A stretch of 64,000 nucleotides of DNA from Stackebrandtia nassauensis DSM 44728 (lineage in GTDB: Bacteria; Actinomycetota; Actinomycetes; Mycobacteriales; Micromonosporaceae): positions 4,774,001 to 4,838,000 of the forward strand of contig NC_013947.1 of NCBI RefSeq assembly GCF_000024545.1, given 5' to 3'. Every line of letters begins with the position of its first letter. Within the stretch, counting starts at the first letter, position 1. The position numbers and the translations under genes were made by a program. Positions 46,171 to 52,429 of this stretch are shown one piece after another. The notes beneath the pieces are model-generated. The model had not been told where the DNA came from. It worked only from the letters and a program-made list of their open reading frames with translations, and did not search any database.

Positions 46171-49100
46171 CACCACCGCTGGGGCTCACCGCGGCCGCCG
46201 AGGGAATCCACATGGGTCAGTCCCTCGACCCCGGCTACCCGGGGTACTGGACCGCGGAATGCGCCGAGATCTCCGGCCCCGTCGACGTCGACCGGCTGTG
46301 CGACGCCATCGCAGCGACGGTGCGCGACGCGGAGGCACTGCACGCGAGGTTCCCCGACGCCGCGACCCAGATCGTCGACGTCGACCCCGCGTGGCGACCC
46401 GAAGTGGTGCGGCTGACCGAATCCGACGGTTGGGAGCGGGTTCGGCAGCTGGTCGACGAACAGCTGTCGCGAGCCGCCGACCTGGACCGCGACCCGCTGT
46501 TCCGCTCGACGGTGTTCGTCGCCGCCGATCGGGTGTACTGGTACATCCAGGCGCACCACATCGTGCTCGACGGCTTCGGCTACGCCATGCTGTACCGGCA
46601 GGTCTCGCAACGCTATCGGGGCCAGACACCGCAACCGTTCGGGCGGTTCGCCGACCTCCTGGCCGACGACGACAGCTACCGCACCGGCGACAAGGCCGCG
46701 CAAGACCGCGAGTACTGGACCAGCCGTCTCGCGGGTCTGACGGCGACCGGCTTCACCGGCGAAACCGCGCTGCCCGACCGTCGCACCATCCGCCTGTCCC
46801 TTCCGGACGATCTGCTCGCCGACGTCGGCGCCAGCTGGCCGCACCGGCTGCTGGCCCTGGTCGCCGCCGCCCTGCACCGCCGCACCGGAACCACCACCCC
46901 CGTCCTGGGGCTGCCGGTCTCAGGCCGCTTGGGCACGGTCGCGGCCAAGGTCCCCGGCATGGTCATGAACATCGCCCCCCTGCCGGTCCCCATCGCGCTG
47001 GACCACACAGTGGACGATGTCACCGCCACCGTCGCGGCCACGCTCAAGGAATCCCGCCGCCACCAGCGCTACCGCTACGAATGGCTGCGCGGCGACCTCG
47101 GCCTGTCCGCCGGACAGGGCTGGGTGTTCGGCCCCGTCGTCAACGTCATCCCGTTCGCCGAACCCCCCGAGTTCCCCGACTGCGACGTCCACATGCACCA
47201 CGTCTCGGCGGGACCGGTCGACGACCTCGCCGTAACAGCGCGCGGCCCCCGATCGCTGACCCTGGAAGCCAACCCGCAGCTGTACTCCACCGAAACGCTG
47301 GCGACCATCCGCGACGACCTGGTCCGCCTGGCCGGTGACAGCGCCCGGGTCTCCCCGTGGCGAGTCATCGACGGCCCGCCACCACCCGAAACCCACCCGC
47401 TCCCCCACCTCATCGACCGCCACCCCGCCAGCCAACCAGCGATAGTGGACGGTGACACGACGCTCACCTACGGCCAGCTGCGAACCCGCGCCCGAGCCGT
47501 CGCCGCCGACCTGTTCCGGCGCGGTGTGCGCCCCGGCGAGCTGGTCGCTGTCAGCCTGCCGCGCGGCGCCGACGCGATCACGGCGATGCTGGGCGTCCTG
47601 TACTGCGGCGCCGGATACCTGCCGCTCGATCCGAACGGTGCGGCGGACCGCAACGCCGCGATCCTGGCCGAAGCCTCCCCGGCGTTCACGATCGACACCG
47701 ACACGCCGCTGCCCGGCCACGAGCCCACTTCAGCGACCAGCAAAGCCGCGAGCCGAGGGCCGTTGGGGAGCGCCAGCTCCCCCAGTCGCGCGGCGACCGG
47801 CGAAGCCGCGAGCCAAGGCCCGTTGGAAAGCGCTGACTCTCCCGGCCGCGCACGCTCGGCGGCCGACGTGGCCGCGAGCCACAGTCCTGTGTGGAACCCC
47901 GAGGCTCCCGCATACGTCATCTACACGTCCGGCTCCACCGGCCGCCCCAAGGGCGTCGCCGTGCCCCGCTCGGCCCTCGACTTCTTCGTGGCCTCGGCGG
48001 CAGAACGCTACGGCTTCACCGCCGACGACCGCGTCCTACAGTTCGCCCCGCTGCACTTCGACGCCCACGTCGAGGAACTGTTCGTATCGCTGGCGCAAGG
48101 CGCGACCATCGTCGTGCGCGATGACTCCGCGACCGTCTCGCTGTCGCGGTTCGCGGATTTCCTTGCCGCCAACCGCGTCTCGGTGCTCGACCTGCCCACC
48201 GCTTACTGGCACGAACTCGTACAGGCGCTGCACTCCAAGCTGGTATCACTGCCCGACAGCGTGTCCACGCTCATCATCGGCGGCGAAGCCGCTAGCCCCG
48301 AACGGCTCGCACAATGGCACAACGCCGTCGGCGACCGCGTACGGCTCATCAACAGCTACGGCCCGACGGAAGCCACAGTGGTGTGTCTGGCCGCCGATCT
48401 GAGCCCAGGCTCAGCAGCCGCAGAGCCCATTGCCAGCCACCACTCGGCCGAATCCTCGACCGCCTCCGGCTCGCCCCGCGCTCAAGCCGAAACCACGCCC
48501 GCCGAGCCGCACAACGCCGTCAGCCTAGGCACGCCGCTGCCAGGCGTTCGCGTCGCCATCGGCCCCGCCGACGAGCTGTACATCGCCGGACCGGGCTTGG
48601 CGTCCGGCTACCTCGCCGACGCCAGTGACACGGCTTCAGCCGACGCGACTCGCATCCCCGACGCGGAGCCGGAACCTCTAGCCGACAAACGCTCCGCCAA
48701 CGCAGCCAACACCGAACTACAACCGTCGCTCAACACCACACGCGACCCCGGCTCCAAGCCGGAACCCTTGATCGCCAAGAGCTCCGCCGACACGGCCGCC
48801 GCCAAACCCCAGCCGTCGCTCGACGCCGCACGCGGCCCCCACGCCAAGCCCGAACGCTCCGCCACCCCCGCCCCGGCCCCGGTCCACATCCACCCCGGCG
48901 ACAACGCGTTCATCTCCGTCGACGGCGAACGCTGGTACCGCACCGGCGACATCGTCACCATCACCCCCAACGGCCAGTTCGCCTTCCACGGCCGCGTCGA
49001 CACCGAGCTGAAGATCTCCGGCCACCGCGTCCACCCCGGCGAAGTCGAAGCCGCGCTGCTGCGCCACCCCGCGGTGCGCGAAGCCGTTGTCACCGTCGAA

Positions 49101-50603
49101 CGCGTCCCCCGTCCCCGTCTCGTCGCGCACCTGGCCGCCGACACCGACGTCGAGACGCTGCGGGAACACGCCCGCCGCCAGCTCCCCGAAGCCGCGATGC
49201 CGTCCAGCTTCCACGTTCGGGATCGGTTGCCCCGCACCAGTACCGGCAAGCTCGACCGTCGTGGGTTGGCCGAGCCGGTGGCCGCGCAATCCGCGGAGCC
49301 CGCGACCGACGCCGAGCGCGCCGTGCTGGCCGTCTTCGCCGAGGTGCTCGGTTCCCGGCCCGCCCCCGATGCCGACTTCTTCGCCAGCGGCGGCACCTCG
49401 TTGACGGCCATCGCCGCCGCGACCCGGTTGAGCGGGGCGTTCGAGCGCGAGGTCACCGCCGCCGAGCTGTTCGCCCACCCCACCGCCACCGAGCTGGCGG
49501 CGGTGCTGTCGGGCCAGGTCGCCGGTGTCGACGACGCCGCGCTCATGGACACCGATCGGGTGTGGCACCGCGACGGGGTTCCGTGCCTGCCCAACGGGGA
49601 TGACGCGATCGCGTTGACCGGCGCGACGGGTTTCGTCGGCTCGCACATGCTGGCCGCGCTGCTGGCCGACACCGATCGGCCGATCCGGTGCCTGGTGCGC
49701 GGCGATGAGCGGCGGTTGGTCGAGGCCGCGCGGCGGTTCGGGCTGCCCGAGCCGGATCTGGCGCGGGTGACGGTGATCGACTGCGATCTGTCGCGTCCGG
49801 TGCTGGGCCTGGACGCGCACGCGATGTCGCTGGTGTCCGACAGCCAGGCCATCGTCAACGTCGCCGGGAACGTGAGCTTCACGCGCGGGTACTCGGGGCT
49901 GCGCGCCGTCAACGTCGAGGCGGTACGGACGCTGCTGGAGCTGGCGTGCGTGGGCGGCAGCGATTTCCACCAGATCTCGACGGTGTCGGTGGGCGCCGGG
50001 GCCGCGCTGCCGGAGGACTTCATCGACAGCCGGGCCGCGTTGACCGACGGGTACCAGCGCGGCAAGTGGGTCGCCGAGGAACTGGTCCGGCAGGTGGGCG
50101 AGCAGGGGCTGGCGGTGTCGTGTTACCGGCTGGGCCGGGTGGTCCCGCCCGCGAGCTCGTCCACGTTCAACCCGGACGACTTCGTGACCCACCTGATCCG
50201 GGCCAGCATGGCGCTGGGCCGGGTGCCGGACCTGTCGGTAACCGAGCCGTGGATCGCCGCCGATGTGGCCGCCGCCTGCGTCACCGACGCGGTCGGCAAA
50301 CGCGACCCCCGGGTGTGGAACCTCGGCGGCGGAACGGTTTCGCTGACGTCGGTGTGGCAGCGGCTGCTCGACGAGCACCCGGACCTCGAACAGGTCCCCG
50401 TGTCGCGGTGGCGCACGCTGCTGGCCGATCGGGAGGACACCGCGATCCTCAAGTCGTTCTTCGACATCCACGCCGACGGCCCGCCCCGGGAACACCACAT
50501 CGACGGCAACCAGCTGGACACCTGGCTGGCCGACAACGGCTGGGGCCGCCGCGACGCGTGGAACCTCGACTGGTGCGCCCGGGTGGCCCGAGCCTCGGCC
50601 TAG
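46167..50603 (+). CDS. NRPS C–A–PCP–reductase, MxcG-like (myxochelin type)
   Basis: 1478-aa synthetase. Condensation domain about 1–400 (HHIVLDG near 130); adenylation domain about 411–1035 with YTSGSTGRPKG (~586), 'YGPTEAT' (~732), YRTGD (~924) and 'STGKLD' (~1025); carrier domain with 'FFASGGTSLTAI' (Ser ~1075); terminal thioester reductase with TGATGFVG (~1151), 'ISTVSVG' and YQRGK. Residues read by eye at the ten specificity positions are D-A-E-D-I-G-S-V-C-K, close to a lysine-type code as I remember it. With one C domain and reductive release this matches MxcG: two DHB units on lysine, released as aldehyde or alcohol. Two long in-frame repeat insertions (about 525–576 and 745–911) interrupt the adenylation domain between core motifs. 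Start in the ATGA overlap. Confidence 0.9.
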   Translation: MTPPLGLTAAAEGIHMGQSLDPGYPGYWTAECAEISGPVDVDRLCDAIAATVRDAEALHARFPDAATQIVDVDPAWRPEVVRLTESDGWERVRQLVDEQLSRAADLDRDPLFRSTVFVAADRVYWYIQAHHIVLDGFGYAMLYRQVSQRYRGQTPQPFGRFADLLADDDSYRTGDKAAQDREYWTSRLAGLTATGFTGETALPDRRTIRLSLPDDLLADVGASWPHRLLALVAAALHRRTGTTTPVLGLPVSGRLGTVAAKVPGMVMNIAPLPVPIALDHTVDDVTATVAATLKESRRHQRYRYEWLRGDLGLSAGQGWVFGPVVNVIPFAEPPEFPDCDVHMHHVSAGPVDDLAVTARGPRSLTLEANPQLYSTETLATIRDDLVRLAGDSARVSPWRVIDGPPPPETHPLPHLIDRHPASQPAIVDGDTTLTYGQLRTRARAVAADLFRRGVRPGELVAVSLPRGADAITAMLGVLYCGAGYLPLDPNGAADRNAAILAEASPAFTIDTDTPLPGHEPTSATSKAASRGPLGSASSPSRAATGEAASQGPLESADSPGRARSAADVAASHSPVWNPEAPAYVIYTSGSTGRPKGVAVPRSALDFFVASAAERYGFTADDRVLQFAPLHFDAHVEELFVSLAQGATIVVRDDSATVSLSRFADFLAANRVSVLDLPTAYWHELVQALHSKLVSLPDSVSTLIIGGEAASPERLAQWHNAVGDRVRLINSYGPTEATVVCLAADLSPGSAAAEPIASHHSAESSTASGSPRAQAETTPAEPHNAVSLGTPLPGVRVAIGPADELYIAGPGLASGYLADASDTASADATRIPDAEPEPLADKRSANAANTELQPSLNTTRDPGSKPEPLIAKSSADTAAAKPQPSLDAARGPHAKPERSATPAPAPVHIHPGDNAFISVDGERWYRTGDIVTITPNGQFAFHGRVDTELKISGHRVHPGEVEAALLRHPAVREAVVTVERVPRPRLVAHLAADTDVETLREHARRQLPEAAMPSSFHVRDRLPRTSTGKLDRRGLAEPVAAQSAEPATDAERAVLAVFAEVLGSRPAPDADFFASGGTSLTAIAAATRLSGAFEREVTAAELFAHPTATELAAVLSGQVAGVDDAALMDTDRVWHRDGVPCLPNGDDAIALTGATGFVGSHMLAALLADTDRPIRCLVRGDERRLVEAARRFGLPEPDLARVTVIDCDLSRPVLGLDAHAMSLVSDSQAIVNVAGNVSFTRGYSGLRAVNVEAVRTLLELACVGGSDFHQISTVSVGAGAALPEDFIDSRAALTDGYQRGKWVAEELVRQVGEQGLAVSCYRLGRVVPPASSSTFNPDDFVTHLIRASMALGRVPDLSVTEPWIAADVAAACVTDAVGKRDPRVWNLGGGTVSLTSVWQRLLDEHPDLEQVPVSRWRTLLADREDTAILKSFFDIHADGPPREHHIDGNQLDTWLADNGWGRRDAWNLDWCARVARASA
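47741..47894 (+). repeat. 60-bp in-frame tandem repeat in the NRPS adenylation domain
   Basis: Two units of exactly 60 bp (47741–47800 and 47801–47860), about 70% identical by eye, and a partial third copy from 47871. The shared core is AAGCCGCGAGCC...GGCCCGTTGG. The first unit contains a 7-bp hairpin GGGGAGC-GCCA-GCTCCCC. They encode an Ala/Ser/Pro/Gly-rich linker just before the TSGSTG motif. Confidence 0.85.
48666..48861 (+). repeat. 90-bp in-frame tandem repeat in the NRPS adenylation domain
   Basis: Units 48666–48755 and 48756–48845, exactly 90 bp, about 70% identical by eye, plus 16 bp of a third. Each encodes about 30 residues of pattern EPEPL..K.SA..A....QPSL...R.P..K, polar and probably disordered, between the 'ELYIAGPGL' and YRTGD motifs. 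Confidence 0.85.
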
Positions 50604-50605
50604 CC

Positions 50606-50715
50606 GCCGAGCCGAGCCGAGCCGAGCCGAGCCGAGCCGAGCCGAGCCGAGCCGAGCCGAGCCGAGCCGAGCCGAGCCGAGCCGAGCCGAGCCGAGCCGA
50701 GCCGAGCCGAGCCGA
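50606..50715 (+). repeat. Pentanucleotide microsatellite (GCCGA)22
   Basis: Twenty-two perfect uninterrupted copies of GCCGA (110 bp), starting two bases after the NRPS stop codon and ending 11 bp before the end of the convergent kinase gene. They fill the intergenic space. No terminator hairpin is visible there. Confidence 0.97.
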
Positions 50716-50726
50716 GCCCCGACAGC

Positions 50727-51761
50727 CTAAGCACCCTCGACGGTCACCTCGGCCGCTGGCAGTTCCACCCGCACCTCCAGGCCACCGCCCTCGGGCAGCG
50801 CCCGCGCCGACACCGAGCCACCGTGGGCGCGGCACACGGCGCGCACAATGGACATCCCCAGCCCCGCGCCCCGCCGACCCACCCGCGCGTCGCCGCCGCG
50901 ACTGAACGGTTCGAACAGCCTCGGCACACTCGCGGCGTCCACGTCGGCACCCGTGTTCCCGACGACGAGCCACGAGATCTCCCGGTCGCCACCCGTCAGC
51001 ACCCACACCCGCCCGCCCGGATTGTTGTGCCGGATGGCGTTCTCGATCAGGTTACCCGCGACCCGTTCCAGCAGCGCCGGGTCACCGACGACCGGCGCCG
51101 GAAGCCGCGACACCGCCAGCGACAGTTCCATAATGTCCGCCGCCCGCCGCGCGGTCGCCATCATCGCCTCGGCGCAGTCGCCCAGGTCGGTCAGCTGCGC
51201 CTTGGACAAACCGCCCTGGCCCTCGGCCTCGGCGCGCGCCAGCCACAGCAGCGACTCGATCAGGTCGTTGACCCGATCGCAGCCGTCCCGCACCACCTCG
51301 CCCATCTGCCGCAGCTCCGCGATGTCATCGTCCGGATTGGACAACGCCACGTCGATCTCGGTGCGCATCACCGTCAACGGCGTCCGCAGCTCATGACTCG
51401 CGTTGGACACGAACCGCCGCTGCGCCTCGAAGGACGCCGAGATCCGGTCGAGCATGTCGTCGAAGGTGTCGGCCAGTTCCCGAACCTCGTCGGGCGGCCC
51501 GTCCAGCCGGATCCGCTCATCGTCCAATGTGTCAGTGGACAGCCGCTTCGCCGTCGCCGTCACCTCGTGCAACGGCCGCAGGCTCCGCCCCGCGACCACG
51601 TAGCCCACGACGAAGCACACCATCGCCGCCACCACGACGGTCGCCAGCTCGAACCGCAGCACCGGTGCGACCAGCACGGCCACCAGGCCCACGACCAGCG
51701 CGGCGCCACCCATCCACAACGCCAGCCGCAGCCGCAGGGTCGGGCGCACCGGCCACGTCAT
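50727..51761 (-). CDS. Sensor histidine kinase, OmpR-system type
   Basis: 344-aa membrane kinase. Two close helices (about 12–33 and 38–58) with almost no extracytoplasmic loop, HAMP-like linker, HisKA with His123 in SNASHELRTPL, HATPase_c with 'NLIENAIRHNN' and 'GAGLGMSIVRA'. The lack of a periplasmic sensor suggests membrane or internal sensing, or a partner. Start overlaps the regulator stop (ATGA). The gene ends next to the GCCGA microsatellite. A direct link to the siderophore locus is not shown. Confidence 0.93.
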   Translation of the reverse strand: MTWPVRPTLRLRLALWMGGAALVVGLVAVLVAPVLRFELATVVVAAMVCFVVGYVVAGRSLRPLHEVTATAKRLSTDTLDDERIRLDGPPDEVRELADTFDDMLDRISASFEAQRRFVSNASHELRTPLTVMRTEIDVALSNPDDDIAELRQMGEVVRDGCDRVNDLIESLLWLARAEAEGQGGLSKAQLTDLGDCAEAMMATARRAADIMELSLAVSRLPAPVVGDPALLERVAGNLIENAIRHNNPGGRVWVLTGGDREISWLVVGNTGADVDAASVPRLFEPFSRGGDARVGRRGAGLGMSIVRAVCRAHGGSVSARALPEGGGLEVRVELPAAEVTVEGA

Positions 51762-52429
51762 TTATCGGCCGCCATGTTGATGCGATAGCCGACCTTCGGC
51801 ACGTTGTCGATCAGCGGCGGCTCGCCGAGCTTGCGGCGCAGCGTGCGCATCGTGACCCGCACCGTAGAGGTGAACGGATCGGCGTGGGCGTCCCACACCC
51901 GGTCCAGCAGTTCCTCGGTCGACACCAGCGTCCCGCCCGCCTTGATCAGTTCCGCCAGCAGGCCGAACTCCTTGTGGGTCAGTTCGAGGTCGCGCCCGCC
52001 CCGGGTCGCGGTGTGGGCGGCCGGATTCAGTTCCACGTCGGCGGCGTGCAGCACCGGCGGCGCGGCCGGGGTGGCGCGGCGCCCCAACGCCTGCACCCGG
52101 GCCACGAGTTCGTCGAACGCGAACGGCTTGGACAGGTAGTCGTCGGCGCCGATGTTGAGGCCGTTGACCTTGTCGGCCAGGGTGCCGCTGGCGGTGAGCA
52201 TGAGGATGCGGGTCAGCGCCCCGCGCCGCGCGATGTCGGCGCACACCTTGTCCCCGTGCATGCCCGGCAGGTCCCGGTCGAGCACGACGACGTCGTAGCG
52301 GACCGTGGTGGCCTCTTGATGCCCGGACAGGCCGTCGTGGACGACGTCGACGGCCATCCCGTGGCGCCGCAACCCCCGCGCGATCGCCTCGGCCAGTCGA
52401 ACCTCGTCCTCTATCACCAGTACCCGCAT
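51758..52429 (-). CDS. Response regulator, OmpR/PhoB family
   Basis: 223-aa regulator with receiver domain (acidic 'IEDE' at 7–10, phospho-Asp51 in VVLDRDLPG, Lys in 'YLSKPFAF') and C-terminal winged helix ('LTHKEFGLLAELI', 'VRVTMRTLRRKLG', 'VPKVGYRI'). First gene of the pair, with the kinase downstream. It may act on the 345-bp divergent region that also serves the secreted protein gene. Confidence 0.95.
   Translation of the reverse strand: MRVLVIEDEVRLAEAIARGLRRHGMAVDVVHDGLSGHQEATTVRYDVVVLDRDLPGMHGDKVCADIARRGALTRILMLTASGTLADKVNGLNIGADDYLSKPFAFDELVARVQALGRRATPAAPPVLHAADVELNPAAHTATRGGRDLELTHKEFGLLAELIKAGGTLVSTEELLDRVWDAHADPFTSTVRVTMRTLRRKLGEPPLIDNVPKVGYRINMAADK

Follow-up and report, generated by a model that had tools for sequence, protein, structure and literature searches.

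Long perfect repeats of short units give phase variation in host-adapted pathogens. Dispersed heptamer repeats have been described in Xanthomonas (GGGAATC) and Nostoc (GGGGA(T/C)T) (PMC4692102). Long simple sequence repeats have been surveyed in prokaryotes (PMC4060949), as have short tandem repeats (PMC12699852), and repeats of 6-11 nt are over-represented in the intergenic DNA of a few genomes, e.g. that of Natrialba magadii (PMC4060949; PMC12699852). Here, we describe a perfect pentamer array between two convergent genes of Stackebrandtia nassauensis DSM 44728 together with the genome-wide set of arrays to which it belongs, and it is this set and its GGCT core that are of main interest.

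The genome is a single contig of 6,841,557 bp, and the window, the whole stretch of 64,000 nucleotides that was analysed, corresponds to positions 4774001-4838000. Sequence and TRF agree that (GCCGA)22 at 50606-50715 is perfect and uninterrupted, as the first-pass annotation had reported, and the maximal perfect period-5 run found by sequence, TRF and our own scan is slightly longer, extending by GCC to 50718 (50606-50718, 113 bp, 22.6 copies). On the minus strand the array reads (GGCTC)n, each unit contains GGCT/AGCC, and all six reading frames are free of stop codons (AEPSR / SARLG). The position given earlier is likewise correct: ORFs and Pfam domains place the array between convergent genes, beginning two bases (CC) after the stop codon TAG (50601-50603) of a plus-strand NRPS gene (46173-50603; condensation, AMP-binding, PP-binding and terminal NAD-binding/reductase domains), whereas on the other side the stop codon (CTA, 50727-50729) of a minus-strand histidine kinase gene (50727-51761; HAMP, HisKA and HATPase_c) follows 11 bases past 50715, i.e. 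8 bp past the periodic run. A response regulator gene (51758-52429, minus strand; Response_reg and Trans_reg_C) overlaps the kinase gene. The gap between the two stop codons (50604-50726) measures 123 bp and is array except for 10 bp, and the array is flanked by CCCGACAG... and GGCTAGGCC....

Within the window the array stands apart, with a TRF score of 226, far above the 154 of the next repeat, and in our own scan it is the only perfect array with at least three copies. Two in-frame arrays had been claimed upstream, and one of these is present as a degenerate 2 x 60-bp in-frame duplication within the NRPS gene (47733-47851, plus strand, TRF; copies ~79-80% identical), a repeat of another kind, but at about 48600-49000 only a weak degenerate repeat was found; neither is like the perfect focal microsatellite. 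Both places belong to the NRPS adenylation domain, which carries degenerate in-frame repeats and low-complexity inserts. The notion of a local repeat-rich hotspot does not fit the window, its other repeats being old and degenerate; the focal array is part of a genome-wide set.

This set was defined by a census in seven blocks, 2.858 Mb in all or 42% of the genome, which counted perfect arrays that had a unit of 1-13 nt and a length of 30 bp or more. The 2.86 Mb contained 23 such arrays (for example GGAGCCG x 31, GCTGGA x 22 and GGCTTG x 19) where 0 were expected, and an order-3 Markov simulation of equal length contained not even one array of 20 bp or more. Chance therefore does not give the focal array, which, as a perfect head-to-tail series of short units beyond chance, is a microsatellite or long simple sequence repeat. 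Four of the five pentamer arrays in the set are built from one and the same pentamer, and the focal pentamer forms four arrays in the whole genome; no shared flanks of these four were apparent by eye, and mobile copies as their source were rejected on this ground. Most arrays are intergenic (20/23), against 83% of the DNA being coding, and their 18 distinct host gaps comprise nine convergent, eight tandem and one divergent. Convergent gaps are thus more frequent than the 19% expected by length or number (9/18, p = 0.003-0.004), and divergent gaps less frequent than the 29% expected (1/18, p = 0.02). These contexts come from our own codon-likelihood gene caller, and single contexts may be off: at least one gene was missed (a hydrolase beside 5321457), where the context is still convergent. 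All intergenic arrays passing the TRF imperfect-repeat filter with a unit of at most 13 nt are 100% perfect, which agrees with their having arisen recently or turning over continuously. An early stage appears to be represented at 6213418, where a (GGCTC)-type proto-array lies in the 22-bp gap that separates a pair of convergent stop codons. The set also includes a perfect 494-bp array, (GGCTTGGCCTTCG)38, which lies 47 bp from (GCTCG)25 (4479292-4479959), the pair standing directly behind a RecX-like gene that was named from the RecA-like ORF adjoining it, and 36 consecutive C residues occupy an intergenic position at 5280819-5280854.

Comparison with other genomes bears on the age and rarity of the array. 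The convergent kinase/NRPS junction is kept in three congeneric genomes (L180, L181 and L183), none of which has an array at the orthologous site; the two stop codons overlap by 7 bp in L181 and by 29 bp in L183, and in L180 the NRPS stop was not located. Since the congeners keep the gene pair without the array, it arose in the S. nassauensis lineage and is, on this comparison, lineage-specific in origin; with one assembly of the strain examined, its absence from congeners speaks of origin and not of current instability. The focal pentamer, searched for as (GAGCC)7, occurs nowhere in four further genomes of the genus and in 4 of 61 relatives, the genome itself included. Arrays that reach 40 bp and have one A alongside four G/C in every five bases occur in seven of 198 Actinomycetota genomes, and this genome alone has GAGCC arrays of that length; a phylum-wide preference for GAGCC is unsupported, the arrays elsewhere being of ACCCG, ACCGC, ACGGC and others. 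In public data, (GAGCC)6 or longer is found in at least 118 contigs from many phyla. These figures agree in part with the view of such repeats as rare, part of the rarity being one of detection: 23 of 82 public (GAGCC)n arrays are no more than 150 bp from one end of the retrieved sequence, many at the contig's first base, and such repeats are probably under-counted because short-read assemblies often break at them. Of the public arrays of the focal pentamer, from genomes of many phyla, 49 could be placed, and all but one of these (48) are noncoding; 18 of the 48 stand in convergent gaps, for which 20% was assumed (p = 0.004).

The array is real, was rightly described and is most likely a neutral product of slippage, and the view that it is unusual and of the kind expected to slip is supported. 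Our favoured account is that of a recent, lineage-specific microsatellite that probably grew by slippage, is tolerated where two genes meet tail to tail and has no likely function for the neighbouring proteins; slippage as the generating step, neutrality and the exact seed are what we infer. A short local sequence behind the NRPS stop, such as GCCGAGCC with its two GCC copies 5 nt apart, may have been the seed, which replication slippage would then have extended into an array. Growth would have been tolerated at this tail-to-tail site, since it leaves promoter, reading frame and ribosome-binding site untouched. Slipped loops could have persisted because the genome, in which no MutS_V domain was found, lacks MutS, and the NucS-dependent route, of which the genome has one NucS, is reportedly unable to correct short indels (PMC8228993). 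From what is known, MutS absence is general in actinobacteria, and it would be insufficient alone, because most actinobacterial genomes searched are without such pentamer arrays. The seed 8-mer GCCGAGCC is common, with 572 copies outside arrays in the sampled DNA, and despite these being mostly coding, long arrays of the focal pentamer are found only outside genes. The tail-to-tail placement, here and in public genomes, points to tolerance while leaving neutrality unproven.

It might be argued instead that the array serves as a bidirectional transcription terminator or roadblock, forming a long hairpin on both RNA strands and so separating the convergent NRPS and kinase transcripts. In a stem survey of the genome (convergent gaps of 20-200 bp, perfect stems of at least 9 bp), stems were present in 44% of convergent gaps but in far fewer of the tandem (9%) and divergent (5%) ones, and the focal gap has no stem besides the array; the usual terminators of this genome are apparently strong hairpins. 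The array RNA is predicted to fold at -49 kcal/mol on the plus strand (z -5.9) and -65 kcal/mol on the minus strand, yet the latter value is no improvement on shuffles (z -0.15). Furthermore, a U-tract is absent, with no T run in either flank, relatives with overlapping stop codons do without the array, and arrays occupy eight co-directional gaps and one divergent gap. Nor do the units themselves argue for folding: they fold no better than the same letters in permuted order (mean quantile 0.52 for RNA and 0.64 for DNA), and better-folding pentamers, AGCGC or AGGCC for example, were not found as arrays. With units so similar to permuted units, and the focal pentamer ranking only 18th-23rd of 102, hairpin-driven expansion or selection for foldable units was rejected. 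GGCTCGG was also dismissed as a terminator motif, its density outside arrays being 0.44 per kb in convergent gaps against 0.38 and 0.36 in the others. A terminator role is possible but not favoured, and we consider it unlikely. The ordinary foldability of the units, and the relatives that do without the array, also weigh against the effect on transcript 3' ends that the first-pass annotation had put forward as a possibility.

Two further readings carry far less weight. The resemblance to the repeats of host-adapted pathogens would suggest a phase-variation (contingency) locus in which copy number toggles the NRPS or the kinase; the array, however, lies beyond both stop codons, in neither a reading frame nor a promoter, so that frame, promoter and start site are untouched, and arrays avoid divergent (promoter) gaps. 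This reading is hardly credible and is excluded by position, at least via the usual mechanisms. An assembly artefact, in which a shorter or imperfect repeat was expanded in silico, could be suspected because such repeats break or collapse short-read assemblies, as the public arrays at sequence ends illustrate. It is, however, very improbable, because the finished genome combines 11x Sanger with 29x 454 coverage (PMC3035245); in addition, the 113-bp array is shorter than one Sanger read, and independent genomes hold similar arrays. Overall, nothing found speaks for phase variation, for an effect on the two neighbouring proteins or for a terminator hairpin under selection.

Slippage alone does not account for every property of the set. 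GGCT/AGCC is contained in 13 of 15 distinct intergenic units, with unit lengths of 4-13. When the letters of each unit were shuffled, a mean of 2.65 units contained it, and in 3000 draws of random intergenic k-mers the mean was 1.07 and the count never exceeded 6; neither null produced any tetramer shared by 13 units. By abundance, AGCC comes no higher than 34th among the 136 intergenic tetramers. The bias appears only above about three copies, since duplications of two to three copies show no GGCT excess (7%) and arrays of 3-4.5 copies do (5/7, small numbers). Neither a shared GGCT nor the use of one pentamer in four of the five pentamer arrays is predicted by plain slippage. Across the whole genome, GGCT recurring every 7 or 8 bases gave 59 and 68 matches, respectively (reversed pattern, 0 and 6), with further arrays outside the sampled blocks at 3105079, 3105394, 3995376, 4140411 and 5091021; such searches can find GGCT arrays only and therefore replicate their presence, not their proportion. 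Several genomes of the same family also have GGCT arrays, where the reversed control is frequent too, and GGCT was found in one of nine perfect arrays elsewhere in the phylum (own count) and in 8 of 21 other arrays at cross-phylum loci. The bias is secure for the sampled part of the S. nassauensis genome only, because the held-out searches could find nothing but GGCT and the bias is weak or absent in other genomes.

As nearly all long intergenic arrays contain GGCT, one step of expansion or retention would have to be motif-dependent. A motif-dependent process, or a protein binding tandem GGCT, that drives or retains arrays with units of 4-13 nt at mostly tail-to-tail junctions is a minority possibility to which we give little weight; on this reading the focal array would be one product of a novel repeat-amplifying or chromosome-organising system. 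The rival account of a GGCT-recognising factor that makes or keeps the arrays (a DNA-binding protein of tandem GGCT, or an enzyme that nicks and amplifies between GGCT sites), with some arrays being parts of composite repeat elements, is decidedly unlikely. It would fit the frequency of GGCT in the units relative to its modest abundance, the period-7 and -8 arrays outside the sampled blocks and the 18-nt motif CATAAGCGGCTACGCCGC, found at 4.479 and again at 6.517 Mb in the space between two arrays but missing at the focal array. Against it, the ends of arrays show no constant GGCT phase, so GGCT was rejected as a cleavage point, and outside S. nassauensis the bias fades. A Y1/HUH transposase origin was also rejected: PF01797 (IS200/IS605 or RAYT type) had no match in the genome, and control genomes were positive. 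The motif CATAAGCGGCTACGCCGC, or forms of it with two mismatches, occurs at 4479793, 6517167, 6517241, 2122239 and 2122488; with its paired arrays it is possibly a composite repeat element, and the pair at 2.122 Mb, in unsampled DNA, may mark another array.

The slippage account, together with this core, has several implications. An apparently free-living bacterium without MutS can hold dozens of long perfect microsatellites at harmless places, and the GGCT core poses the testable question of whether short-tandem-repeat expansion in bacteria can be sequence-specific, and by what. If variable, the arrays would be ready-made markers for strain typing. In the literature searched, we found no description of a tetramer core common to array units.

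Among described systems, the heptamers of Xanthomonas and Nostoc are similar in being perfect or near-perfect short tandem arrays scattered along the chromosome, and those of Xanthomonas also in being mostly intergenic (about 90%) and near neighbouring ORFs (PMC4692102). In those genomes, however, a single heptamer dominates, with G-runs shown to form quadruplexes (PMC4692102), whereas the units of S. nassauensis range from 4 to 13 nt, share only GGCT and prefer convergent gaps; the focal unit is a pentamer with GG only, not a heptamer with runs of at least three G. The arrays also resemble the long simple sequence repeats of prokaryotes, in which short-unit repeats far exceed expectation, although those are described as correlating with dependence on a eukaryotic host (PMC4060949; PMC12699852) and S. 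nassauensis is a presumed free-living soil actinobacterium. With contingency loci the focal array shares a perfect slippage-prone repeat, but, standing behind both stop codons, it cannot switch frames or promoter spacing. The focal array adds a member to a known kind of repeat, and a GGCT core in units of free length is a variation new to it.
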